Shown here piece by piece: positions 7,330-62,453 of a stretch of DNA of 64,000 nt. Under the pieces are notes generated by a model. It saw only the letters and a list, made by a program, of their open reading frames with translations, was not told the origin of the DNA and searched no databases. A program made the translations under genes and the position numbers. This DNA comes from Clostridiales bacterium (GTDB lineage: Bacteria; Acidobacteriota; Aminicenantia; Aminicenantales; UBA8522): positions 62,001-126,000 of the forward strand of contig JARYMI010000001.1 in the NCBI GenBank assembly GCA_029907205.1, written 5' to 3'. The stretch's first letter is position 1, and every line of letters begins with the position of its first letter.

Positions 7330-8232
7330 GTGTTTTCTAAAATTTTCAAGAACAAGGATGGCCTTCTCAAACATGCTCTGAGTTTCCTTGCCTCGCTCGC
7401 CATCCACGCTGTTCTGCTCGCCTTCATGGCCATCCATTTTGTCTCCGTCAAGATCATCGACTTCAAAGAACAAGTCACTGACATCATCATCGCCCCCAGA
7501 CCAAAACTGGAAGCTCCCAAGATCGAGGGCCCGCTTCCGGAGCTTCCCCGGCGAGAGTCCGATTTCCTCGAATTTCTTCCTACGCGGCGACCCAGACCAC
7601 GGGAGGCCGTTGAGGCGGTTGAGGGCATAGCGGGGGAAAAAGGGGCTATGGAGGCCTTGCCAGCCCCCTATCTCGACCCGAAGTTCACCTCAGGGTTCAG
7701 GCTGGATAAACAGCCGGAAGGGCAGGCCAGGATATCGAGCAACAGATTGCGCCTGACTGTTCCCGAGCGCAAACCGGGCGCGATGGAAAGTCAGACAAAA
7801 ATGATTTCGCCACCTAAAGCTGGCGACCTTCGGAAATATGTGTATGCCAGCCCTTCTGGAGCTTCTGGAATCTCCATCGGACTCGGCGCCGGAAGGCGGC
7901 CCAGAAGCGCTCCCTCGAGAAGCCGCTCTGTCCCGCCGGGCGTCCTCAAGATCGACCTTTCGCCCTGGGCCAGGACGGTTATCGAACTCCTCCAGAAAAA
8001 CTGGGCTGTGCCGGCAGCTCAGGGTTTTTCGTCTGATGCCTCCGTCGAGATTGTCATCGTCGTTCTCAAAAGCGGCGCTGTGACGTTCGTTGAAGTCGTT
8101 TCTCCGTCGGAAGATCATGAATTTGACCTGACCGCACGCGAGGCGATCGAGCTAAGCTCGCCGCTGCCCCAGCTTCCCGACAACTTTCCAGCTGATAGCC
8201 TTGAACTTACACTCGTTTTTTCCAAACAATGA
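7330..8232 (+). CDS. TonB/TolA C-terminal-domain protein
   Basis: A 300-residue single-pass inner-membrane protein. One hydrophobic helix (LSFLASLAIHAVLLAFMAI) anchors the N-terminus. A Pro/Glu/Arg-rich linker (residues ~55-200) would span the periplasm, and the last ~95 residues form a TonB_C-like domain (SPWARTVIELLQKNW, then alternating strands VEIVIVVLKSGAV and EFDLTAREAIELSSPLPQLP). TonB proteins pass energy from an ExbB-ExbD motor to outer-membrane receptors; no ExbBD pair is in the window. The GTG start has no clear Shine-Dalgarno and follows a -10 box by 6 bases. Its stop overlaps the next gene by ATGA. Confidence 0.75.
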   Translation: MFSKIFKNKDGLLKHALSFLASLAIHAVLLAFMAIHFVSVKIIDFKEQVTDIIIAPRPKLEAPKIEGPLPELPRRESDFLEFLPTRRPRPREAVEAVEGIAGEKGAMEALPAPYLDPKFTSGFRLDKQPEGQARISSNRLRLTVPERKPGAMESQTKMISPPKAGDLRKYVYASPSGASGISIGLGAGRRPRSAPSRSRSVPPGVLKIDLSPWARTVIELLQKNWAVPAAQGFSSDASVEIVIVVLKSGAVTFVEVVSPSEDHEFDLTAREAIELSSPLPQLPDNFPADSLELTLVFSKQ

Positions 8233-9317
8233 TAAAAACAACCGTCAGGCTGCTCATTTGGTCGGCCATCTTGTGCTCAGGTTTCGCCTCCGACTGGCGC
8301 ACCGAGGTGGCCGCTTTTTTTGCCGTGCAGGCTGACTACGGTGAAGCAGCCAGGTACCTGGATGGCCAGCTGTCTTCTCTGAATGACGAGGACAAACCCG
8401 TGGCCCTGGGCCTGCTTGCTTTTCTTTCCAACCGGCTGGGCGATAAGGAAAGCGAATACAGGCTCCTGGGTGAATATTTCGAGAAATACGGCCCTCTGGA
8501 CATGGCTTATCATTTTCTGCCGCTCTCTGCCCAAAATGCCGTCATCATCTACTTCAGGGAGTGGATTCTCAAGTATCCCTGGGTTCTCAGGGTCGGCTTC
8601 GTCGAATCGAGCATGCCTCAAGCCAGGCCGGCTGCCTCTTCTCCGCCGGCCAAGCTTGTCCTCGGGCTGGAGATGGCCAACGAAGCTTACTATAAGCTTT
8701 TTGAAAACACCACTGTCCTTGAGGGGGGGCAGTTCAGGAGAGGGCATAACTCCGTGAGCCTCGACACAAGTAAGCTCTTCAGGGACTCAGGAGCTCACAC
8801 CTATGTTCTGGAGCTCAAAGCCGGAGACCTTATTGTCAGAAGGAAAGTCACTGTCGATGTCAGGCTTAACGCCTTTGGCGTTGTCGGCAACAAGGCCCCT
8901 CCTTCAGGAAAAATTCCAACATACGTTCTGAAACTGTTCTTGGGAGATGACCTCCTCGCCTTCAGCCGAAAATCTCCGCCCGCAACCCCGCCGATAAAGA
9001 TCGAGATGCCTCAACCGACCGGCGTTTACGACCCGTGGGGCCCCGGCTATCAGAACAAGCCTGAGATCCCGAACACATTTCCCATCCTCGGGATTCCGGC
9101 CCTCATCAACGAGATCATCAAGAGCCTGAAGAAAAAAGACGAAGTGGAGCCGGTGCCTCCCGTCGAGCTGAAGACGGAAATCACTCTCGTTTTTAAGGGA
9201 AAACAAGAAGGGAGCCGGGAAACCGAGATCATCGCCCGGCTGAGGCTCGACCAAAGGGAGATTGAATTTTTCCCTTATTCGTCGGCCCGCAACCCAGACC
9301 GAAGCCCTACGCCTTAG
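8229..9317 (+). CDS. Hypothetical exported protein coupled to the TonB-like gene
   Basis: I do not recognise a family. The 362-residue product starts with a hydrophobic segment (VRLLIWSAILCSGFAS) typical of a signal peptide. Residues ~25-110 are helical with a TPR-like rhythm (AARYLDGQL, EYRLLGEYFEKYG). The middle part (~145-220) looks like a beta-sandwich (KLVLGLEMANEAYYKLFE, TYVLELKAGDLIVRRK). The C-terminal third is Pro-rich, then ends in strands TEITLVFKGKQEG. The start codon overlaps the stop of the TonB-like gene, so a periplasmic partner role is likely (inference). Confidence 0.6.
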   Translation: MIKTTVRLLIWSAILCSGFASDWRTEVAAFFAVQADYGEAARYLDGQLSSLNDEDKPVALGLLAFLSNRLGDKESEYRLLGEYFEKYGPLDMAYHFLPLSAQNAVIIYFREWILKYPWVLRVGFVESSMPQARPAASSPPAKLVLGLEMANEAYYKLFENTTVLEGGQFRRGHNSVSLDTSKLFRDSGAHTYVLELKAGDLIVRRKVTVDVRLNAFGVVGNKAPPSGKIPTYVLKLFLGDDLLAFSRKSPPATPPIKIEMPQPTGVYDPWGPGYQNKPEIPNTFPILGIPALINEIIKSLKKKDEVEPVPPVELKTEITLVFKGKQEGSRETEIIARLRLDQREIEFFPYSSARNPDRSPTP

Positions 9318-9367
9318 GCATCAAACAATACCTTCTTGTTGATTTGACGAAGAGTATCAATTTTCCT

Positions 9368-11047
9368 ATGATAGAGCCCGATTTCAGAAAATTGGAAAAG
9401 AAAGCCTTCTCTGCCCGCTCGATCGTCATCCTTCTCCTCATCCTGACGCTGGCGGCTGTCCTCCGCCTTCAGCACCTCAAAGCTGACCCGCCCCAGCTTC
9501 TCGTCCATCTCTGCCGGAGCGCCGGCATTTATTTCGACGAAGCGATGTACTGTCATAATGCGAGGAACAAGATTCTTTTTGACACCTGGACGTTCGACGA
9601 TTGGAACCCCATCCTCTACAATGCCGTCCTGACGGGGATCTATTATGTCGGGTTTAAAATCTTCGGGATAAGTATCGCCACCGTCAAAGTGACGAATATT
9701 CTCTTTGGTCTGTTGGGCATTATCTTTGTCTATCTGGCCATTCGCCGCTATCTTTCTGAATCTTACGCCCTTGGCCTGAGCTTTCTTTTCTCTCTCGATT
9801 TCTACTGGACGATGTACAACCGCATCGGCCTGCTCGAGAATTTCTCGACGCTGTTTTTCATCATCAGCTTTTATTTTCTCGTAAAATCCAAGGATAAGCG
9901 CGGCGCCATGCCGCTCGTGGGCGTCTCTGTGGCCATGGCCGTTCTATCCAAGTATCTGTTTTTCTACTTTTTTCCGGCCGCCCTGCTGGCCATCCTCTAC
10001 CATTCGTGGAGCGAGAAGCGCTGGCGCCCGGTTGCCCACTTTCTGGCCGGTTTCTTCTCTGTCCTCTTCGTGTGGTTTGTTTCCATCTACCTTCCGCTCT
10101 CTTCGGCCTTCAGGAAAATCGGGTCCGGCTGGATGGAGCTTTCCTGGCCAGAGAATGTGGGCATCTTCTTTTTCAACCTCTACCGAAACAACCTGTCCCG
10201 TTACATGAGCCTCATTCCCTTTTTATTCATCGCCGGCCTCCTTTTTTCAGCCATGGTCATTGTCAGGCTTGTGAAGAAAAACCCGCCGCCGGATGTTCTC
10301 GAGGTCTTTGTTTTCCTGTGGCTCACAGGAACGTTTTTCCAGATGGCCATTCTTAATTACCAGCCCCTGCGCTATTATCTCGTCGTGGTGCCAGGGCTCT
10401 TTTTCGCCCTATCGCTGGCCGTGAAAAACAGAGATTGGCTGAAGGCCAACGCCAAGCCTGTTGCCTTGACTTTTGTTTTCCTCGGTGCTCTTTTTTATAA
10501 ATTCTGGATCGGCCTCGTCAGGCCGCCGTCAGCCTTCTTCGCCTTCAATCACATCGTCCTGAGAATCCCCCTCTATCTCACTTTGGCCCTGATATTCGTC
10601 TTGTGGCTAAGGAAGAGCCGCCAGATGGAAAAAGCAGCCCTCCTCTACGTCCTGGTGTCTCTCGCCCTCGCTTCCCTGTTTGTCTACTATTCTCAATTTT
10701 ACAAAAAACCCTCCTACCAGGTTGAGTCGGCCGCCCGGCGGCTTCGCCTTCTGCCATCCGGGTCAGTGATCATGGGCAATGAGGCTCCTCGTCTTGCCCT
10801 GGAGACGGATTTCAGGTTTTTCGTCGCCTTCCCGGGCTGGTTTAACGATAAAGATCCTTTCAACCAATACCGCCCGACTCACCTCCTCGTCCTGGACAAG
10901 TTCTGGGGAGGAGAGCTCGTATGGATTCAGAAGCGCTTTCCGGAGGTCGCAGCCAACCTCAGGTTGCACCGGCGGTTTCCCGTCTGGGATACAACCGTCT
11001 CTCTCTACAAAGTCAATTATCCCGATAAGCCCGCCGACCACCCGTAG
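9368..11047 (+). CDS. GT39/ArnT-like membrane glycosyltransferase
   Basis: A polytopic membrane protein of 559 residues with about 11-12 predicted helices. The first periplasmic loop contains FDEAMYCHNAR, the acidic motif of PMT/ArnT-type (GT39/GT83) glycosyltransferases that use polyprenyl-phosphate sugars. WNPILYNAVLTGIYYVGF and YNRIGLLENFSTLF are further family-like blocks. It lies between other glycan enzymes. Two starts are possible, TTG at 9344 and ATG at 9368, and neither has a Shine-Dalgarno. TATCAA at 9355-9360 lies 7 bases before the ATG, matching the leaderless layout seen elsewhere here, so I prefer 9368. Confidence 0.85.
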   Translation: MIEPDFRKLEKKAFSARSIVILLLILTLAAVLRLQHLKADPPQLLVHLCRSAGIYFDEAMYCHNARNKILFDTWTFDDWNPILYNAVLTGIYYVGFKIFGISIATVKVTNILFGLLGIIFVYLAIRRYLSESYALGLSFLFSLDFYWTMYNRIGLLENFSTLFFIISFYFLVKSKDKRGAMPLVGVSVAMAVLSKYLFFYFFPAALLAILYHSWSEKRWRPVAHFLAGFFSVLFVWFVSIYLPLSSAFRKIGSGWMELSWPENVGIFFFNLYRNNLSRYMSLIPFLFIAGLLFSAMVIVRLVKKNPPPDVLEVFVFLWLTGTFFQMAILNYQPLRYYLVVVPGLFFALSLAVKNRDWLKANAKPVALTFVFLGALFYKFWIGLVRPPSAFFAFNHIVLRIPLYLTLALIFVLWLRKSRQMEKAALLYVLVSLALASLFVYYSQFYKKPSYQVESAARRLRLLPSGSVIMGNEAPRLALETDFRFFVAFPGWFNDKDPFNQYRPTHLLVLDKFWGGELVWIQKRFPEVAANLRLHRRFPVWDTTVSLYKVNYPDKPADHP

Positions 11048-11071
11048 CAAACGCCTTCCAGCGCTATTCTC

Positions 11072-11101
11072 TTGACAGTGGCGCTCGAGTTTTTTCATAC
11101 T
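11072..11101 (+). promoter_or_regulatory. Promoter, consensus -35, leaderless layout
   Basis: Perfect TTGACA at 11072-11077, an 18-base spacer and CATACT at 11096-11101. The in-frame ATG at 11109 follows the -10 by 7 bases. The earlier ATG at 11103 would lie upstream of the expected transcription start. Confidence 0.65.
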
Positions 11102-11108
11102 CATGGCA

Positions 11109-13484
11109 ATGAACAAGCTCCAGAGCCGGCTGGCAGTCGTTGGCTTCCTTATTCTTTCTTTTGGCGTCGCCCTCTTCTTCAGCCTCTGTCTCCAGAGCCG
11201 CCGCTTCACCATCCTTGACCACACATTTCAGTTTGACTCCGTCTTTTTCCTGCTCTGGACTAGTGTTTCCGCTCTTCTTGTTTTAGCCTGGATTTTTCTC
11301 GCGCGATGGGAAGCCCGGCGGTTCTCCCTCTCTTTGTCTTCGCGGCTTCGGGCAGGGTTCTTGACTTCGCTTCCCCTCGCCTTCTTTCTCCTCTCTCCCT
11401 GGCTTCTTCGCTCTTACTTAACCCGGGACGACTTCAGGTCGAGGCTCCGGCTTCTTGGCCTTTTTGTCCTCGCTGCCGTCGTTTTCTCCAAGCTTTGGAG
11501 CTATGCCCGCCTCAACAGAAACAAGCCATCCTTGCTCGATCGCGCAACGGCAAGATTCGAGTCTTACCCCCTTGGCCGGAAGCTTGTTTTGCTTTTTTTC
11601 ATCGCCTTCCTCATCTATCAAGCCGCCGCCGGCCTTCTCGTCATCCAGGGGACATCATTCACCGGCGACGAGCCCTTTTATCTCCTGACCTCCCACAGCC
11701 TCTTCAAAGACAAAGATATCAACCTGACCAACAACTACGCCCAGAAGGATTATTTTGCCTTCTACTCTAAAAAAGACCATCCTCGCCTGAAGCTGGGAAT
11801 CTACGGACGCTTTGGCCGCAAGGGGCAAGATTATATCTATCCTATCAACCTCCCTGGAATTTCCGTTCTGATGCTTCCGTTCTACTGGCTGAGTCAGTTC
11901 TTCTCCGGTCGCTGGCTCACGTTTATCCTCAAGACGAGCCTCTCGCCCTGGGCGGCGCTTCTCGGTATTCAGCTCTATCTTTACGCCAAAGAGCTCTGGA
12001 AAAAAGAGCGGGTTGCCCTCGGCCTCTGGGCTCTCTATTCTTTCAGCTCACCCGTCTTTTTCTATGCCTGCCATCTTTATCCCGAGGTTCCCATCGCCCT
12101 TTTTTCCCTCTATATCTTCAGAAAAGTGAGCAGCCGCCAGGCTCTATCGGCACCTCATCTTGCTTTCCTCGGCTTTCTTCTCGGCCTTTTTCCCTGGTTC
12201 GGGGTGAAGTACAATTTCATCTTCTGGCCGCTCCTGCTTATTTCCCTTTACTTCCTTATCAAAGAACACCAGGCCAGGCTAAAGAGCCTAGCCTTTCTGT
12301 TTTTCCCCCTATTTTCTACTCTCCTCTTTTACCTTTTCATCTACAGCCTTTACGGCACGCTCTCGCCGGTGGCTGTCTATGAAGGCGTCATGTCTCCTGA
12401 GCAGGTAGAGGCCTTTAAGCAGACGGTCCTGGCCATTCCTCTGCGGGCGAGGATAGACGCTTTCCTGGATTACTTCCTCGACCAGCGCGACGGCCTTCTT
12501 CTTTATTCTCCCGTCTATTTTTTTTCTTTGCTCGGCCTGGTGGAAATCTTCCGCAGGCGAAGGCGGGATTTCTGGTCGTTTCTCCTCATCAGCCTTCCCT
12601 TTCTTCTCAACTACGCCTTCTTCACTCACCGGCAGGGCGCCTCCCCGCAGGGCCGTGTGCTGACTCCCCTGTCCTGGATGGCGGCTGTGGCATTGGGCTA
12701 TTTTCTCGTCCACAACCGGAGCAAGATCTTCTCCTTCGTCTTTGGTCTCGCCGCGGCTTTTGCTTTCGCCATCGCCGGACTGCTTCTCGCCCACCCATCT
12801 TTTCTCTACCAGCCGACCACTCACGAATACACCTCCCGGCCGGCTGACCTCTTCGTCCATCTAAGCAACATGCACTTTTCCCTCCCTCCGCTGCTTCCGT
12901 CATTCATCAAAGTGGATAACACCCGATACTGGCCAAATTATGTGTGGATTCTGGCCATCATCGTTTTTATCCTGGCCTATTCACTCTCCCGCCGAGAAAA
13001 ACCTTGGCCGCGTTCCCTACCAGCTGCCTTTATCTCTGTTGGCCTCACGGTCGGCTTTTTCCTCTGGGTGCTGTATCCGCGGCCGCCGCTTTATCCCGCT
13101 AAGACGATCCGCTATTCTTCCCAGAAAGCGTTGGGATTCTATCTTTTTCCGGTCGGAAAAGGGGTTGTTTCAGGCGAAAAAGGCGATTTCTACCTTCATT
13201 TCGAAAGAACATACAGGTTTATCTTTGGCTCAAGGACGAGGCTGGACAGCGTGCGGTTTGTCTTCGGGTCTGAAAAGGGGGATTACAGCGCGCGTCTGGC
13301 GCTCTTCGACCTTCCTTTCTTCAAGGGGAAAACAGCCTATGAGACGAAAGAAATTCTCCTCGAGCCCGCCGCAGCTTATCCCTTCAAGAGCCTCTATCTC
13401 TATGAGGTCAGCCTCAGCCTCACCCATCATTCCTCAGAATCCATGCTCCTCGAGCCCTATCTTTTCCAGGTTATTCCCCGGTAA
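11109..13484 (+). CDS. GT-C family membrane glycosyltransferase, paralogue of the left-edge gene
   Basis: A 791-residue polytopic membrane protein, clearly paralogous to the gene at 1-2157 along its length. It shares the acidic loop FTGDEPFYLL with INLTNNY, the block LDQRDGLLLYSPVYFF and a ~110-residue hydrophilic C-terminal beta domain (TYRFIFGSRTRLDSVRFVFG). GT-C enzymes use polyprenyl-phosphate sugars on the outer face of the inner membrane. The N-terminus has two helices and then a set of charged loops. The start is moved from ATG 11103 to ATG 11109 because the -10 box ends at 11101. The acceptor and sugar are unknown. Confidence 0.85.
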   Translation: MNKLQSRLAVVGFLILSFGVALFFSLCLQSRRFTILDHTFQFDSVFFLLWTSVSALLVLAWIFLARWEARRFSLSLSSRLRAGFLTSLPLAFFLLSPWLLRSYLTRDDFRSRLRLLGLFVLAAVVFSKLWSYARLNRNKPSLLDRATARFESYPLGRKLVLLFFIAFLIYQAAAGLLVIQGTSFTGDEPFYLLTSHSLFKDKDINLTNNYAQKDYFAFYSKKDHPRLKLGIYGRFGRKGQDYIYPINLPGISVLMLPFYWLSQFFSGRWLTFILKTSLSPWAALLGIQLYLYAKELWKKERVALGLWALYSFSSPVFFYACHLYPEVPIALFSLYIFRKVSSRQALSAPHLAFLGFLLGLFPWFGVKYNFIFWPLLLISLYFLIKEHQARLKSLAFLFFPLFSTLLFYLFIYSLYGTLSPVAVYEGVMSPEQVEAFKQTVLAIPLRARIDAFLDYFLDQRDGLLLYSPVYFFSLLGLVEIFRRRRRDFWSFLLISLPFLLNYAFFTHRQGASPQGRVLTPLSWMAAVALGYFLVHNRSKIFSFVFGLAAAFAFAIAGLLLAHPSFLYQPTTHEYTSRPADLFVHLSNMHFSLPPLLPSFIKVDNTRYWPNYVWILAIIVFILAYSLSRREKPWPRSLPAAFISVGLTVGFFLWVLYPRPPLYPAKTIRYSSQKALGFYLFPVGKGVVSGEKGDFYLHFERTYRFIFGSRTRLDSVRFVFGSEKGDYSARLALFDLPFFKGKTAYETKEILLEPAAAYPFKSLYLYEVSLSLTHHSSESMLLEPYLFQVIPR

Positions 13485-36435: not shown

Positions 36436-37872
36436 TCACGCCGCCCGAGCCAGGAAATAATCGGCCACGCGGATTCCGCACTTGTCGGGGTTCAAACACC
36501 TGACGATCGTTCTCCTGAATTTTCCTGTCTCCACCTCGATATCAGAGAGGTCAACGACCTCTCCGTCAACCATGCGTCCAGTTGAATCGGCGATTAGCTT
36601 TACTTCCGGCCTCAATTGAAAGGCGGCATGAGGATTTGCTTCGAAGACTATGCCTATTTCTCCACTGTCCAGGACAACAAGAGACCCGACCGGGTATGCA
36701 CCGATCATGCTGGCGAAAGCCCGAAGAAAAGTCGGGTTGAACTCGTCCCCGCTTTTCTCCCTCATATCATTCAGCGCCTCCTCCCGCGTGAGCGCCTGAG
36801 GCCGGTAAACGCGCGGGGTGGTGATGGCATCAAAGTAATCGACAATTTTCACAATCTTGCTGAAGATGTTGGACGTGCTTTTCCTGAGATACCGAGGATA
36901 CTCGCTCATATCAGCTTTGAGATGGTGCTCCAGGGCGACCTGCACGGCTCGCAACGGCAGGCGTCGAGCGCTTTTGAGCTCGATCAGCTTTTCCGCTCCG
37001 TGCTGAACATGCCTTTCAACGACGGCGCGTTCTTCGCCGGTAAGCTGGGAGGGCTTATCTAAGATCTCTTTGGGAACATCGAGCTTACCCACGTCGTGGA
37101 GAAAGGCGCTTATGCCCAGATCCAGAAGCTCTTCTCTAGTCAATCCCAGACGCCGGCCAAGGGCGACGGCCAGGATGCAGACATTGATGGAATGATTCAG
37201 CGTGTAATCATCATGGTTCTTGATGTTGGTCAGCCCGTAAACGAACGATTCGTCATCCAGAATATGATTGAAAATCGACTGCATCCAGCGCTTCATCAGG
37301 TTAAAGTTCACAGAGGCGCCCTGCTTTTGTTTCTCAAACGCTTCTTTCAAAAGATGGATGCCGGCGAAGTACATTCGCACTGCGCTCTTCTCCCGGCTCA
37401 CATTCAGCTCAACGGGGGCTATCTTCTCAACAAGGATATGGTCGATGCGTTCTCTGTCCATGGCCTCGATAACCTGGTCGCAAGCGCCCTTTGAAGGGAG
37501 GTCTTTTCTCAGCAGAATGCGCATGAAGCGTTGAAGTTCGTCCTCTTGCATCTCGGGAGAGAAGGAGATTGCGGCGATCTCCTTAGTCTGAAAGTCCGCG
37601 CAGAGCGATTTGAAAATGTGGTAGTTCGAATAGTCAAACTTAACGCGGACGCCGTTCACTAAAATCGCATTCTGCCGCACGCGGAGGACGATTTCCCCTT
37701 CCGTTTCCAAAGCCCCCTTTAAGGCGGAATAGAGCTGTGTGAATTGGTCCTGGACAATCTGATTGCCAAAATCGTAGACCTTGCCAATCTTGAGAACAGC
37801 AAAAGTGCGAAGGAGCAAATGGACGAGCTCTTTCTGAGCCAGGCCAGTTTTTTCCTGTGTCATCTGTTCCAA
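36436..37872 (-). CDS. HD-GYP-like phosphohydrolase with N-terminal shared module (cassette 1, gene 2)
   Basis: A 478-residue protein. Residues ~1-150 form a module also found in the three other cassette proteins (F-x-x-LKIGKVYDFG, then VLRVRQNAILVNGV). From ~210 comes an HD-GYP-like domain: LNHSINVCILA, FLHDVGKLDVPKEIL (HD), ERHVQHG (His), ALEHHLKADMSEYP (HH, with EYP in place of GYP) and IVDYFDAIT (Asp). Metal ligands look intact, so hydrolysis of a cyclic dinucleotide is possible, but the altered loop makes the substrate uncertain. The C-terminus (YPVGSLVVLDSGEIGIV) is a small beta domain. Probable TTG start with AAGGA seven bases before; begins 4 bases after the HEAT gene. Confidence 0.85.
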   Translation of the reverse strand: MEQMTQEKTGLAQKELVHLLLRTFAVLKIGKVYDFGNQIVQDQFTQLYSALKGALETEGEIVLRVRQNAILVNGVRVKFDYSNYHIFKSLCADFQTKEIAAISFSPEMQEDELQRFMRILLRKDLPSKGACDQVIEAMDRERIDHILVEKIAPVELNVSREKSAVRMYFAGIHLLKEAFEKQKQGASVNFNLMKRWMQSIFNHILDDESFVYGLTNIKNHDDYTLNHSINVCILAVALGRRLGLTREELLDLGISAFLHDVGKLDVPKEILDKPSQLTGEERAVVERHVQHGAEKLIELKSARRLPLRAVQVALEHHLKADMSEYPRYLRKSTSNIFSKIVKIVDYFDAITTPRVYRPQALTREEALNDMREKSGDEFNPTFLRAFASMIGAYPVGSLVVLDSGEIGIVFEANPHAAFQLRPEVKLIADSTGRMVDGEVVDLSDIEVETGKFRRTIVRCLNPDKCGIRVADYFLARAA

Positions 37873-37876
37873 TTTA

Positions 37877-39649
37877 TTATCCTTGATCGCCTGGGCCGAG
37901 TCCCTTTGGGCCGGAACTCGCCAATGCTTTGCGGCAAGCCTCGCTGACCTTCCTGTTCGAGCTTTTCACTCCTTGCCTCAAGATTTCCAGCGCTTCCGGG
38001 GTTCCCACGCGACTCAAAGCTTCCACAGCGCACAGCTTGGTCAGGAACCGACTTTTTCCCGCGAAAAGCCCAGGCTTCTCCATAGCCCGGCGCACCGCCT
38101 CGAGAGCCTCTGGGTCGCCGCTCCGGACCAGGAAGCTGAGGATGGCTATTCTGCGTTTTGGCCCGAACAGGAGAAATTGCCGAGACTGGATGATCTTGAT
38201 TATCCTTTTAAGAACCTCCTTCTTCCCAGGCCAACGAAGCTGTTCAGCAGCTGCCGTGCCGACGTCTTCATCTTTATCCTGAACAAAGGCAAGCAGGATC
38301 CTCTGCGCGAGAGGCTCGCAAGAAGAGCCGAGAGTTCCGACTGCGGCCAGCCTGATTTCCTCGTTTGTGTACGTGCTCAAGGCGGCCAGGCAGGTCAAAG
38401 CCCGTTGACTCGGATGTCGTCCGAGCAGGCTAATGATTTCCCGGGTGATCGCCGGCTTTCCATCCCGGAGCTGGTGGGCGAGGATATCGACATTTTCCTG
38501 GCTGATCTCCTCGAGGTAGTCGACGGCCGCACGACGAGTCCCGGCTTCCTGGGTTTCATCCAAAAGTTCTGTTGCCAGGGAGACGGACTCGCTTCCCAGA
38601 AACCCGAAATAATCCAAGAGAGCAGAGAGGGAATCGAAGTTTTTGCGGCCGATCGATTCACGGACCAGGTCGATACTCCGTCCTCTCTTAACCTCCTCCA
38701 GGAACTTGTCAACCTCCGCCGCCTTTCCTGGATTCTCCTCCGAAAAAAGATGGCGAAGCTCATAGACCTGTCTCAACAAATGGACCGCGTGGGAGAACTT
38801 GCCCTCCTGGATGAGTTCACGGTGATGACGCTCGAGGAACTTGAGTACCGAGACGATACGCTCAGGCCTTTCCTCAAGCGACAGGAGTTCGAAGATCATA
38901 TCGTGGAATTCAATTTCCGGGGGAGATTGGCGAGCCTTCGTCAGCATGAAATCAATCATCTCTTTTTCTTCATTTTCAAGCGCGGTCATAAGCTCGGCAT
39001 AATCCTTTCCCTCTTCCTGTTCCATGAGCCCAAGCGACATTCTCTTGGCCTGGATATCCCTCAGGTCGTCAGGCGAAAGTTCGATCTGACCGCTGAAGAG
39101 CCTATGCCTATCGACGAAGAAATCAAAAGGCTGCCTGGTGAAGATATCTATTTTAGCCAGCAGATGTTCATCCGGCGCGTAGATTCGGATGCTCGAAAAA
39201 TCCTTCTTCCAAATGGAAATAACGACATCACTTTCCTCCAGGGGCAAGAGTGATGTTTCGCGGATGACATCGAGAAGTTCGCGGAGCTCGTGCTTGTCGA
39301 TCCCCTTGAGGATGGCGAATTTTTGCATGCCGTCTTTATGGAAAAGGTAGGGCAGGCTCTTGGGCAGATGTTCCTCCTTCAGGACGACCTCCCCATCCAT
39401 GAGAAAAGCGTTTTCTTGAACATCCACCTCAAGCTCCTCGCGGCCCGCAAAATATTCCCTCAATTTCGCATAAAGCTCATCGACGAATTTGACAGCCGTA
39501 GAATGATGGGGAGGAAAAAGTTTGAGGGAGGTCACGGCGTGGCTGAAGAGGAGAAAAATCTCCTTGACGATTTTGACCCCGGCTTTATCTGGGGCCTCGC
39601 CCGAGCCCCCTGAATCAGCTACCTGAATGCGCTCTTCCTCTCCTGACAT
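37877..39649 (-). CDS. HEAT-repeat protein with N-terminal shared module (cassette 1, gene 1)
   Basis: A 590-residue cytoplasmic protein. Residues ~25-140 are the shared module (HAVTSLKLFPPHHSTAVKF, VDVQENAFLMDGE). The middle is helical. From ~335 the sequence is built of HEAT-like alpha repeats (AAVDYLEEISQENVDILAHQ, EIRLAAVGTLGSSCEP, DVGTAAAEQLRWPGKKEVLK, CAVEALSRVGTPEALEILRQ). HEAT arrays are scaffolds for protein contacts. GGAG lies 5 bases before the ATG. The next gene, an HD-GYP-like protein, starts 4 bases downstream, so the two products probably act together. Confidence 0.82.
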   Translation of the reverse strand: MSGEEERIQVADSGGSGEAPDKAGVKIVKEIFLLFSHAVTSLKLFPPHHSTAVKFVDELYAKLREYFAGREELEVDVQENAFLMDGEVVLKEEHLPKSLPYLFHKDGMQKFAILKGIDKHELRELLDVIRETSLLPLEESDVVISIWKKDFSSIRIYAPDEHLLAKIDIFTRQPFDFFVDRHRLFSGQIELSPDDLRDIQAKRMSLGLMEQEEGKDYAELMTALENEEKEMIDFMLTKARQSPPEIEFHDMIFELLSLEERPERIVSVLKFLERHHRELIQEGKFSHAVHLLRQVYELRHLFSEENPGKAAEVDKFLEEVKRGRSIDLVRESIGRKNFDSLSALLDYFGFLGSESVSLATELLDETQEAGTRRAAVDYLEEISQENVDILAHQLRDGKPAITREIISLLGRHPSQRALTCLAALSTYTNEEIRLAAVGTLGSSCEPLAQRILLAFVQDKDEDVGTAAAEQLRWPGKKEVLKRIIKIIQSRQFLLFGPKRRIAILSFLVRSGDPEALEAVRRAMEKPGLFAGKSRFLTKLCAVEALSRVGTPEALEILRQGVKSSNRKVSEACRKALASSGPKGLGPGDQG

Positions 39650-59236: not shown

Positions 59237-60532
59237 TTAAATGAAGGGCAGGTATTTTTTCCCTTCGCCGAACGGGTTCAGGGCCGCTTGGATGGCGACC
59301 TCGCTCTTTCGCTCCGCCAGGTCGAGCCACTCCCTTCTGTCGGGCGGGTCGACGACCTCCACCTGCGGACAGAATATATCCTGCGAGTTTGCCTTCCTGA
59401 CCACGGCCACCCGGCCGTCAGCGAGCGAGACGATCGTGCCAGCCGGCCAAACTCCCATAATCCGATAGAAACTATCTAAATACTCGGGATCGAAGAAAGA
59501 GCCCTTTTGCCGGGCCATGACTTCATAAATCCGGAGCGGGGTGAAAAATTCTCGCGAAGCTCTTTTCTGGTACATTTCGTCATAGATGTCACAGACAGAG
59601 ATAAGGAGCGTCGCCGGATGGGGCCGCCGCGGGAAAGTGAGCCGCGACCGGCTTTTAAGGCCGCAGCCAAAACTATGCTCGAACGCCACGACCGCCGGGA
59701 GCTGTCCGAGCGATTCTCTCTGGGGAAGCAGCATCTCTGCCCCGAGGAGAGCGTGCCCCAGCCGCCGGGCCTCGTCATCTCTATCTTGCGCCAGTCTGCC
59801 GACATCGTGAAAGAGCCCGGCCAAGCCGATGTCCAAGACTTCGTCTCTGGGAAAACCAAGACGCGAGGAAAAGAACATGGCCAGGATGGCCGTGTTGAGG
59901 AGGTGGAGAAAAATCAGGCGATCCTTCTGCCGGACGGCAAAAATGCTCAGCAGCTCCTGATGCGACCCCCAAAAATTTTCCAACAAGCTGAAGACAAGAA
60001 ACCTGGCTTCCACCGGGTCTAACTTTTCCTTCGCCAGGATCTTCTCGACCGATTGAGAAAGGGCCGCCACCGAAAACTCATACTGCCTGGCCCGGGAACC
60101 CGGGCCTTTTTCCGCCGCTGCCCGAGGGGCTTCGATCTTTCCCGCCCGGATGTTCTCGATGCCCTCAAGCGTCAGGTACTCATAAGCATCGCCGATGGCC
60201 TGGCCCCGGGGAAGAGAAAGATAGCCGATAAATTTGGTCCACTCATCCTCTCTCAGGGCCCGATGAAGCCACACCCTCTCGACGCCGCGGTCCTCGAGAT
60301 AGGTGAGCAGAGGCCTCAGCTTCTGGCTCAGGTCGAAAAAGATTTCTTTCCCGCAGGCTACTTCACCTTCGACGACGCCAACGGTCAGCTCTTCCTGATC
60401 CTGGAAGATTTCCTGGAGCGCCTGGAAAGATTTGCCCACGAATTCCTTGAACCGGGGATGCTCGATTGAATAAATCTTCCCGGCCTGGATGGCCGAGGTG
60501 AAATCAGTCAAGAATTGTCTAAGCTTGTCCAA
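59237..60532 (-). CDS. HD-domain protein with N-terminal shared module (cassette 2, gene 2)
   Basis: A 431-residue protein paralogous to the one at 36436-37872. Residues ~1-120 are the shared module (DFTSAIQAGKIYSIEHPRFK, LTVGVVEGEVACGKE). The HD domain begins at ~205: LHLLNTAILAMFFS, LAGLFHDVGRLAQD (HD), GHALLGAEML, VVAFEHSFGC, ISVCDIYDEM. The second His of the HH pair is replaced by Ser and the GYP loop is missing, so it may be inactive or altered. The C-terminus (VWPAGTIVSLADGRVAVV) matches its paralogue. TTG start, overlapping the HEAT gene by 14 bases. Confidence 0.82.
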   Translation of the reverse strand: MDKLRQFLTDFTSAIQAGKIYSIEHPRFKEFVGKSFQALQEIFQDQEELTVGVVEGEVACGKEIFFDLSQKLRPLLTYLEDRGVERVWLHRALREDEWTKFIGYLSLPRGQAIGDAYEYLTLEGIENIRAGKIEAPRAAAEKGPGSRARQYEFSVAALSQSVEKILAKEKLDPVEARFLVFSLLENFWGSHQELLSIFAVRQKDRLIFLHLLNTAILAMFFSSRLGFPRDEVLDIGLAGLFHDVGRLAQDRDDEARRLGHALLGAEMLLPQRESLGQLPAVVAFEHSFGCGLKSRSRLTFPRRPHPATLLISVCDIYDEMYQKRASREFFTPLRIYEVMARQKGSFFDPEYLDSFYRIMGVWPAGTIVSLADGRVAVVRKANSQDIFCPQVEVVDPPDRREWLDLAERKSEVAIQAALNPFGEGKKYLPFI

Positions 60533-62453
60533 GGCTCCATTTCTCCAGCAGGCCGGTTGCCTTCCGGCGCAACGTTCTATTCCAGAAAAATCTCCGCTGG
60601 CTCAACCTGGCGATATGCTCGGCTGCCTCCCGCAGCTCGAGGTCAGCGGCGATTCTCAGGTGCTCGAGGAGAACCCTGTTTCTCAGTCCGAAAGGCGAGG
60701 GTTTAAGAAAAAACATCTTCAGGGCTTTTTTCCTGCTCCCTTCTTCTTTCTTCAGGATGATCAAGGCCTCTTTTTTCTGCGAAAAATCGCCCTTGCGGAG
60801 GACCGCGAAGAGGAAATCTTCGTCACAGGCTGACAAATGCCTCATGGCTCGCAGCGACTTGAGCTTGATCAAGCGGTCGCCCAGGCCAAATATGTTCTTC
60901 AGCGTGGCCAGCGAAAGCGGGGAATCAACCTCAGCCAGGGTTTCGGCCATTCTCTCAAGAAAACGGCGGTCGGACTTCCTCTGCTCGAGGCTCAGGTTGA
61001 AGTAAAAAATCCCGTCGGAAAAAAGCTGGAAAAACGTCCGCAAGATCGTGGGCGTCACCTTGTTCTCCTCGAAAATGGTCTCGAGGTAATAATTGACCCC
61101 TAAGGCGCTCCGGGGCAAACGCTTAACGAAGTAGGTGAGCTCCGGACTATCTTCCCCCTTGAGAACGCTTTTTTCGATGAAGTCGGTCAGGTCGGCTCTG
61201 ATTTTTCCAAAAAGGGGCTCGGCTGAGAGGGTATCGGCTTTTTTCTCAAGGAGCTCGAAAAGGGATTTCAGGAATTCAAGATCTCTGTCCCTGGTGATGC
61301 TCTCCCATTCCTCAAGGACCGCAGCGAGCAGGCCTGAGGCGGCTTCTTTTCTCGGGTCAGAAGCGAGGACATTCAAGAGCATCGAGCGATAGTTCCTGCA
61401 GAGAAGCTCGCGATCAAGGACTGGCTTTTTGCGGGCTGAAATCTCGCGGAGAACCCCGGAAAATGCCTCCCTGAAGGAGAGGGGGAGAGAAGCCGGCCAG
61501 CCACCGGCCATGAATTCCTCAATCCTCTTCCTGAAGTGCGGCGATTGTTCGAGCAAGGCCGCGTTTCGGCAGGCTTCCTCCTTTAGGCAACCTGCCACCC
61601 TCAGGCATTTTTCCGAACCCAACAGCCGAGAGAAAATATCCAGGCTCGCGGTATCGAATTGACCGCCTGAAGCCATTTCTCTTAGAAGCAAAGAGGCCAA
61701 GTCCTGATCTCTTGCTCCGGCAGCAATCCCCCTCAACTCGCAAAGTTTGTCTTCTTCTTTGATGGACCTTTCCCTGAGGATTTTCCTTGCTGTTTCGAAG
61801 GCACACCTCTGGTACTCTTCTTCAGCCTCGGTTTTCAAGCAGGCAAAGAATCGGCCAAAATCTTCAAGCTGCTCCTTGTCTTCTACAATCCTGGCCAGGT
61901 TGATTTCGCCGATGACGCGAGAATAAGATGCTGCCACCTGGCGGATTTTTTGGGGATCTTGGTGCCTGACAGATTCAGAGAGCAGGTAAGTCCAGACATC
62001 TTTGATTTCATAGCCTTCGCCGGCCAGAAGCTCTGAATAATCCAACTCTTCAATGGCAAAGGGAAGGATTTTTTCTTTTTCCAAAAGGTAACGGATTCCG
62101 CCCGCCCTGGCGATTTCTTGGGGTGTGAGCGACAGAAAGCCGATCAGAGTTTGCCAATCCTCGATCGTTGCGTCTTCCCTCGCCTCAAGGCTCAGTATCC
62201 GGCGGATGTGGAATAGATGAGCCACCTCCTCCCAGAGCTTGTCTTTTTCCCAAGTCTTGCCGTCTACCACCACCGAGTGAGGAGTGAAAGCGATTTTCAA
62301 GCCCGGAGAGAATTTCTGGAGAACGTCCATTTTCTCCTTGAGGTCCTTAATTGATTGCAAAAAGGCGGGATGTTCTTTGGGATAAAGAGAGGCGCTCTTG
62401 AGCGCTAGCCTGAAGCTCCTGAGGAAATCCTGGAGAGCCTCTTCTTTATTCAT
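60519..62453 (-). CDS. HEAT-type alpha-helical protein with N-terminal shared module (cassette 2, gene 1)
   Basis: A 644-residue helical protein. Residues ~1-125 are the shared module (LRSFRLALKSASLYPKEHPA, IAFTPHSVVVDGK, WQTLIGFLSLTPQE). The remainder is helical with repeat-like stretches (ISARKKPVLDRELLCRNYRS, ATLKNIFGLGDRLIKLKSLR, AMRHLSACDEDFLFAVLRKG), ending in HEAT-like helices. It precedes the HD gene exactly as in cassette 1 and overlaps it by 14 bases. ATG 62453. An extended -10 promoter lies upstream. Confidence 0.78.
   Translation of the reverse strand: MNKEEALQDFLRSFRLALKSASLYPKEHPAFLQSIKDLKEKMDVLQKFSPGLKIAFTPHSVVVDGKTWEKDKLWEEVAHLFHIRRILSLEAREDATIEDWQTLIGFLSLTPQEIARAGGIRYLLEKEKILPFAIEELDYSELLAGEGYEIKDVWTYLLSESVRHQDPQKIRQVAASYSRVIGEINLARIVEDKEQLEDFGRFFACLKTEAEEEYQRCAFETARKILRERSIKEEDKLCELRGIAAGARDQDLASLLLREMASGGQFDTASLDIFSRLLGSEKCLRVAGCLKEEACRNAALLEQSPHFRKRIEEFMAGGWPASLPLSFREAFSGVLREISARKKPVLDRELLCRNYRSMLLNVLASDPRKEAASGLLAAVLEEWESITRDRDLEFLKSLFELLEKKADTLSAEPLFGKIRADLTDFIEKSVLKGEDSPELTYFVKRLPRSALGVNYYLETIFEENKVTPTILRTFFQLFSDGIFYFNLSLEQRKSDRRFLERMAETLAEVDSPLSLATLKNIFGLGDRLIKLKSLRAMRHLSACDEDFLFAVLRKGDFSQKKEALIILKKEEGSRKKALKMFFLKPSPFGLRNRVLLEHLRIAADLELREAAEHIARLSQRRFFWNRTLRRKATGLLEKWSLGQA

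Follow-up and report, generated by a model that had tools for sequence, protein, structure and literature searches.

HEAT-repeat proteins and HD-GYP proteins that begin with a similar N-terminal module are encoded as a tightly linked gene pair and are inherited together. A module-bearing gene is located directly upstream, on the same strand, in 104 of the 105 module HD-GYP genes of the fetched loci, whereas this is the case for only one of the 55 module-less HD-GYP genes, and the trees of the two partners are congruent. The conserved pair points to a two-part switch for cyclic-dinucleotide signalling. In the window, i.e., the whole stretch of 64,000 nucleotides that was analysed, two such pairs are present, which are termed cassette 1 and cassette 2.

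Organization of the gene pair

Cassette 1 consists of two genes on the minus strand, the HEAT gene first and the HD gene second. Gene 1 (37877..39649, minus strand) encodes the module-HEAT protein (P0002) of 590 aa and has GGAG ahead of its ATG; gene 2 (36436..37872, minus strand) encodes the module-HD-GYP protein (P0001) of 478 aa from a TTG start. The two genes are separated by exactly 4 bases (TAA, then TAAA, then TTG), and a Shine-Dalgarno-like AAGGA (37880..37884, minus strand) lies within the 3' end of gene 1, 7 nt upstream of the TTG, which makes this start credible. The gap and the start codon given in the preliminary description are borne out by these features. The assignment of the two genes to HEAT and HD-GYP-like proteins also agrees with Pfam: HEAT_2 reaches 80 bits against a cut-off of 27.7, in five stretches of the HEAT protein, and HD_5 reaches 80.6 bits against a cut-off of 27.2 in the HD protein.

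In the HEAT protein, the N-terminal module (residues ~24-161; 39167..39580, minus strand), delimited by profile comparison and AlphaFold2, is followed by a low-confidence stretch (residues 171-240) and further helices in the AlphaFold2 model, and then by the HEAT-repeat solenoid (residues ~341-578; 37916..38629, minus strand), which is recognized by Pfam HEAT_2, AlphaFold2 and Foldseek. The alpha-solenoid of the model has Foldseek matches to HEAT-like alphaReps and the PP2A A subunit. The HD protein consists of the N-terminal module (residues ~12-153; 37414..37839, minus strand), delimited in the same way, the HD-GYP catalytic domain (residues ~208-390; 36703..37251, minus strand) and a C-terminal small beta domain (residues ~395-478; 36439..36690, minus strand), which is predicted by AlphaFold2 and has no family match. 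The models, computed from orthologue alignments, have mean pLDDT values of 88 (HD) and 84 (HEAT), with values of mostly 80-96 within the module.

By Pfam and Foldseek, the HEAT protein has the same solenoid as bacterial HEAT-repeat proteins (HEAT_2, PBS lyase HEAT-like; alphaRep), and its likeness to the PP2A scaffold subunit, an enzyme-holding scaffold, is one of analogy. Unlike these proteins, it carries the N-terminal module and has a constant HD-GYP partner, and unlike the PBS lyase HEAT-like proteins and PP2A it has no lyase or phosphatase link. A role in anti-phage defence was considered and rejected, as its sole support in PADLOC was a partial match of the HEAT repeats to HEAT-ARM_XIII; the HD protein had no PADLOC match. 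A paper on HEAT repeats in C. perfringens was likewise set aside because it concerns a different, unrelated locus.

The shared N-terminal module

The similarity of the two N-terminal regions, noticed in the preliminary description, is substantiated by profile comparison. Profiles built from the N-terminal parts of 36 HD and 34 HEAT orthologues match in hhalign with a probability of 97.8 % (E 1.1e-12; 129 columns, 16 % identity). All six pairings of the four cassette proteins, the alignment that had been proposed as a check, give 96-98 %, and both proteins of cassette 2 carry the same module as the cassette 1 pair. Negative-control comparisons of the module with the HD domain, the HEAT repeats or the middle region stay below 2 %, ruling out chance similarity. 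When full-length profiles are compared, only HD residues 8-149 and HEAT residues 19-156 align, and the module is ~140 residues long in both proteins. AlphaFold2 predicts the element order H-H-E-E-H-E-H-H-E in both, with one short strand more in the HEAT protein. Judged by sequence profiles and predicted topology, the two regions are homologous and do not have unrelated folds.

A typical pattern of the module is K-x-Y/F-x-P-x-H/N ... L/V-x-I-x-x-N-x-F ... G-I-x-x-L-x-F-x-x-G-L-x-x-x-E-L-x-x-F. An aromatic-rich helix, S-L-P-F-F-F-F-K-D-G, is strongly conserved in the HEAT module, and almost no residues are invariant across the modules of both partners. No Pfam or NCBIfam family matches over its cut-off within residues ~1-200 of the HD protein or ~1-340 of the HEAT protein; 40 module members gave only single-member chance matches in the two collections, and no described domain fits. 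Searches of PDB sequences yielded no match across the whole domain; the listed Octarellin and cytochrome trimer were rejected as sums of weak sub-matches arising by chance.

The HD-GYP catalytic site

The HD protein matches solved HD-GYP proteins (phmmer E 2e-21 to 4mcw; Foldseek TM 0.7 to the 9rbz domain). PmGH has eight metal ligands including E185, and the HD protein matches the seven shared ones, H227, H259, D260, H288, H316, H317 and D345 (pattern H-HD-H-HH-D); in addition, its D221, K263 and R354 match D183, K225 and R314 of PmGH (PMC4159591). The metal site, which had been thought to look intact, is complete in these seven ligands, and all seven are retained in 77 of the 85 pairs compared. 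The position of E185, the eighth ligand, which marks the trinuclear subfamily only, is Tyr223 in 36 of 36 close relatives, placing the HD protein in the Y/F subfamily with a probably binuclear site.

The earlier reading of GYP as EYP (residues 324-326) is true of the cassette 1 copy, but on sequence comparison it is a minor local change in a family that is mostly GYP: EYP is confined to this copy among the 36 relatives compared, GYP being present in 33 of the 36 and in 74 of the 85 pairs. In PmGH, G284A causes no substantial loss of activity, and GYP alanine mutants stayed active (PMC4159591). Given this tolerance and the retained metal ligands, the HD protein of cassette 1 is predicted to be active, with c-di-GMP as the most likely substrate. 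Cassette 2 comprises a module-HEAT-type protein (P0004, 644 aa; 60519..62453, minus strand) and a module-HD protein (P0003, 431 aa; 59237..60532, minus strand) with a degenerate catalytic site. The latter has lost the HH pair and GYP (EHS...) and is predicted to be inactive for this reason, its orthologues elsewhere (L066, L067, L069) being intact.

Pairing and co-inheritance of the partners

The pairing counts are based on every fetched locus that had 2 kb or more of upstream sequence; the last 20 loci were chosen partly for two adjacent module matches, and the earlier counts, based on loci fetched by HD similarity, show the same pattern as the full set. The lone miss among the module HD-GYP genes (L253) is an over-long ORF overlapping its HEAT gene, an ORF-start artefact, and the lone exception among the module-less genes (L027) corresponds to the latter half of a module-HD gene that is split. 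Thus, the partners are found together, not mostly apart. The search for conserved gene order that had been suggested gives HEAT then HD in all 85 pairs without exception; in 80 of them the genes either overlap (by 4 bases in 19 cases) or are separated by no more than 25 bp.

In the HD-domain tree, module HD-GYPs are separate from the sampled module-less HD-GYPs, one split gene excepted. The trees of the two partners are congruent over the 85 pairs (r = 0.94, compared with at most 0.13 in 500 permutations) and have 55 of 82 splits in common. Where double HEAT-HD pairs occur in tandem (L247, L248, L249, L262, L044), each keeps its own partner lineage. Inter-protein covariation across the 85 pairs (Neff 64) shows enrichment at the HEAT module. 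As this enrichment is equally strong against the HD domain and the HD module, and subtype differences dominate the signal, it does not count as evidence of contact. In some cases a module-HEAT gene is found with no HD-GYP partner, suggesting that the HEAT protein can have other partners.

Distribution and genomic context

Of 59 relatives, nearly all encode a full-length homologue of the HD protein. According to named records, the group belongs to Candidatus Aminicenantes, and pairs also occur in Gemmatimonadetes, Nitrospirae, Omnitrophota, Acidobacteria and a 'Clostridia' MAG. In the scan of genome contigs, a single-protein query gave no match and an alignment-based query found homologues. By module-profile search, 24 of 25 close relatives carry the module, as do 85 of 247 genomes of the phylum, and 75 of 118 and 79 of 198 sampled genomes of the phyla of a Nitrospirae MAG and a 'Deltaproteobacteria' MAG, respectively. 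By these frequencies, the system is common in environmental bacteria.

The genome has three pairs: cassettes 1 and 2, both on contig C44, and one on contig C66, whose HD and HEAT proteins are 48 % and 33 % identical to those of cassette 1. The widespread Aminicenantes copy is located, in several families, in the neighbourhood rhaB-rhaA-HEAT-HD-(alpha-L-rhamnosidase)-(aminotransferase)-AP-superfamily phosphodiesterases, and the C66 copy is also accompanied by rhaB, rhaA and phosphodiesterase genes. In the rhamnose-locus copies (L030, L034-L036, L038, L044, L045, L048, L050, L052, L056, L065, L068, L195), the pair is flanked by rhamnose isomerase/kinase genes on one side and, at many loci, by an alpha-L-rhamnosidase gene on the other, and AP-superfamily phosphodiesterase genes are often downstream. 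Cassettes 1 and 2 and the pairs of other phyla have no rhamnose-type neighbours. Since cassette 1 is also without them and its closest copies are found in two sampled relatives only (G021, 75 %; G003, 71 %), sequence comparison identifies it as a lineage-specific paralogue of the rhamnose-operon copy.

The module-HEAT unit also occurs in larger proteins. Single chains with the order GGDEF-AAA-module-HEAT, frequently with two tandem modules, are found in Aminicenantes, Gemmatimonadota, another bacterium and genomes of the 'Deltaproteobacteria' phylum, and their GGDEF motif is intact where checked (RYAGDEF, RYGGDEF or similar). Examples of 1180-1535 aa combine GGDEF, a STAND-like AAA domain, one or two modules and HEAT repeats (L180:7053-10625, L228:1147-5244, L229:4956-9563, L256:579-4847, L257:4219-8502, L278:3050-7393 and 7896-12176, L279:4039-8334, L280:570-4112). 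A module-HEAT protein with cNMP-binding and PilZ domains was seen once (L277:7014-12056), and by eye a 1164-aa module protein (L255:6202-9696) opens with a PilZ-like stretch. The genome with cassettes 1 and 2 itself has five GGDEF and five PilZ matches over cut-off.

Possible mechanism and alternatives

The pair probably constitutes an obligate two-subunit cyclic-dinucleotide phosphodiesterase, in which the HEAT subunit docks via the paired modules and controls or places the enzyme; from the sequences and gene order we infer the heterodimerisation, the control by the HEAT subunit, the substrate and the signal. Coupled translation would allow both subunits to be made together, and the homologous N-terminal modules would pair to form a pseudo-symmetric HEAT/HD-GYP heterodimer. 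The HEAT solenoid would sense or bind something and thereby set or localise the phosphodiesterase activity. In such a complex, the module pair would take the role of the GAF domain and linker helix of PmGH, which homodimerises via these elements and whose N-terminal part alone makes a dimer (PMC4159591).

The main rival is that the module is a ligand sensor and that both proteins sense the same ligand separately, perhaps as homodimers, being co-regulated without a heterodimer. The usual regulators of HD-GYP proteins are N-terminal sensory domains (GAF, PAS, REC), and the GAF-dependent homodimer of PmGH and the strongly conserved aromatic helix of the HEAT module are in line with this idea. A shared ligand pocket, however, would not be expected to have almost no invariant residues across partners, and in the sample the module keeps to HEAT and HD-GYP proteins, unlike the output range of PAS or GAF domains; separate sensing is hence rated as rather unlikely. 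The rhaB-rhaA-HEAT-HD-(alpha-L-rhamnosidase) context of the main Aminicenantes copy, seen in several families and including the C66 paralogue, would instead fit a cassette serving polysaccharide or rhamnose metabolism, with the HD domain hydrolysing another phosphoester or nucleotide and the HEAT protein as its subunit. This is improbable, given that cassettes 1 and 2 and the pairs of other phyla lack such neighbours, that the residues with which HD-GYP domains hydrolyse cyclic dinucleotides are retained, and that GGDEF and PilZ domains occur in one chain with the module-HEAT unit. A conserved operon does not by itself show contact, and the two proteins might act independently, the module having been duplicated long ago and the genes merely being co-transcribed; the near-perfect pairing across phyla, the congruent trees in which tandem paralogues keep their partners, and the two modules per chain in GGDEF-AAA proteins make this very improbable.

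Most work on HD-GYP enzymes concerns single proteins fused to a sensor. Under the favoured two-subunit reading, a large HD-GYP branch seems to work only with a co-inherited second subunit that has a domain in common with the enzyme, and the system would explain many 'hypothetical HEAT repeat' genes. A broader possibility, put forward tentatively, is that the module is a dedicated pairing domain of a class of unrecognised cyclic-dinucleotide complexes in multiple phyla, in which HEAT scaffolds unite synthesis (GGDEF-AAA), breakdown (HD-GYP) and reading (PilZ) of the messenger. If so, such complexes would provide local, private second-messenger pools.

Relation to known systems

The HD protein has the same catalytic domain as PmGH (4mcw), PA4781 (4r8z) and DvhD (9rbz), including the seven shared ligands and the catalytic D/K pair, but differs from them in that an unnamed module occupies the N-terminus in place of GAF, REC or PAS, that a HEAT partner gene is obligate, and that the protein has a C-terminal beta domain and, in this copy, EYP. 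Its HD-GYP fold is also like that of Bd1817 (3tm8), an unconventional HD-GYP protein of Bdellovibrio with its own N-terminal region (Foldseek, 333 columns); Bd1817 is inactive, and the tyrosine of its GYP motif is missing (PMC4159591). The N-terminal domain of Bd1817 is not supported as a counterpart of the module, as the Foldseek superposition has an rmsd of 16 A over most of the chain, and a profile of the HD N-terminal region plus linker had no match to Bd1817 or any solved protein. Control of a c-di-GMP enzyme by a partner protein has a functional parallel in SiaC-SiaD (PMC8457831). The comparison concerns function and not domains; SiaD is a diguanylate cyclase, unlike the HD-GYP protein here.

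In a collection of open-access papers searched for HEAT repeats together with HD-GYP, GGDEF/c-di-GMP, or phosphodiesterase/diguanylate cyclase/scaffold, a pair of this type is not described. Family and literature searches agree with the earlier remark that no named system has this layout. The parts are of known kinds, whereas for the module and the obligate arrangement of two subunits this collection has apparently no description.

Other genes near module-bearing genes

In an Acidobacteriota family (L246, L264, L260, L265), a module-HEAT gene without an HD-GYP partner lies by a gene for a small HD-domain hydrolase; some loci of this family (f32) also have, by eye, a gene resembling PAS-type sensors near the module-HEAT gene. 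PAS-GGDEF genes are located near pairs of the cassette 2 type (L066:3988-4923, L188:8729-9664, L187:2693-3622, L191:2-964, L192:8174-9160), 10 bp upstream of the pair in L066 and L188. The GGDEF motif of all five is degenerate, and the site of the HD partner is also degenerate in three of the five loci.
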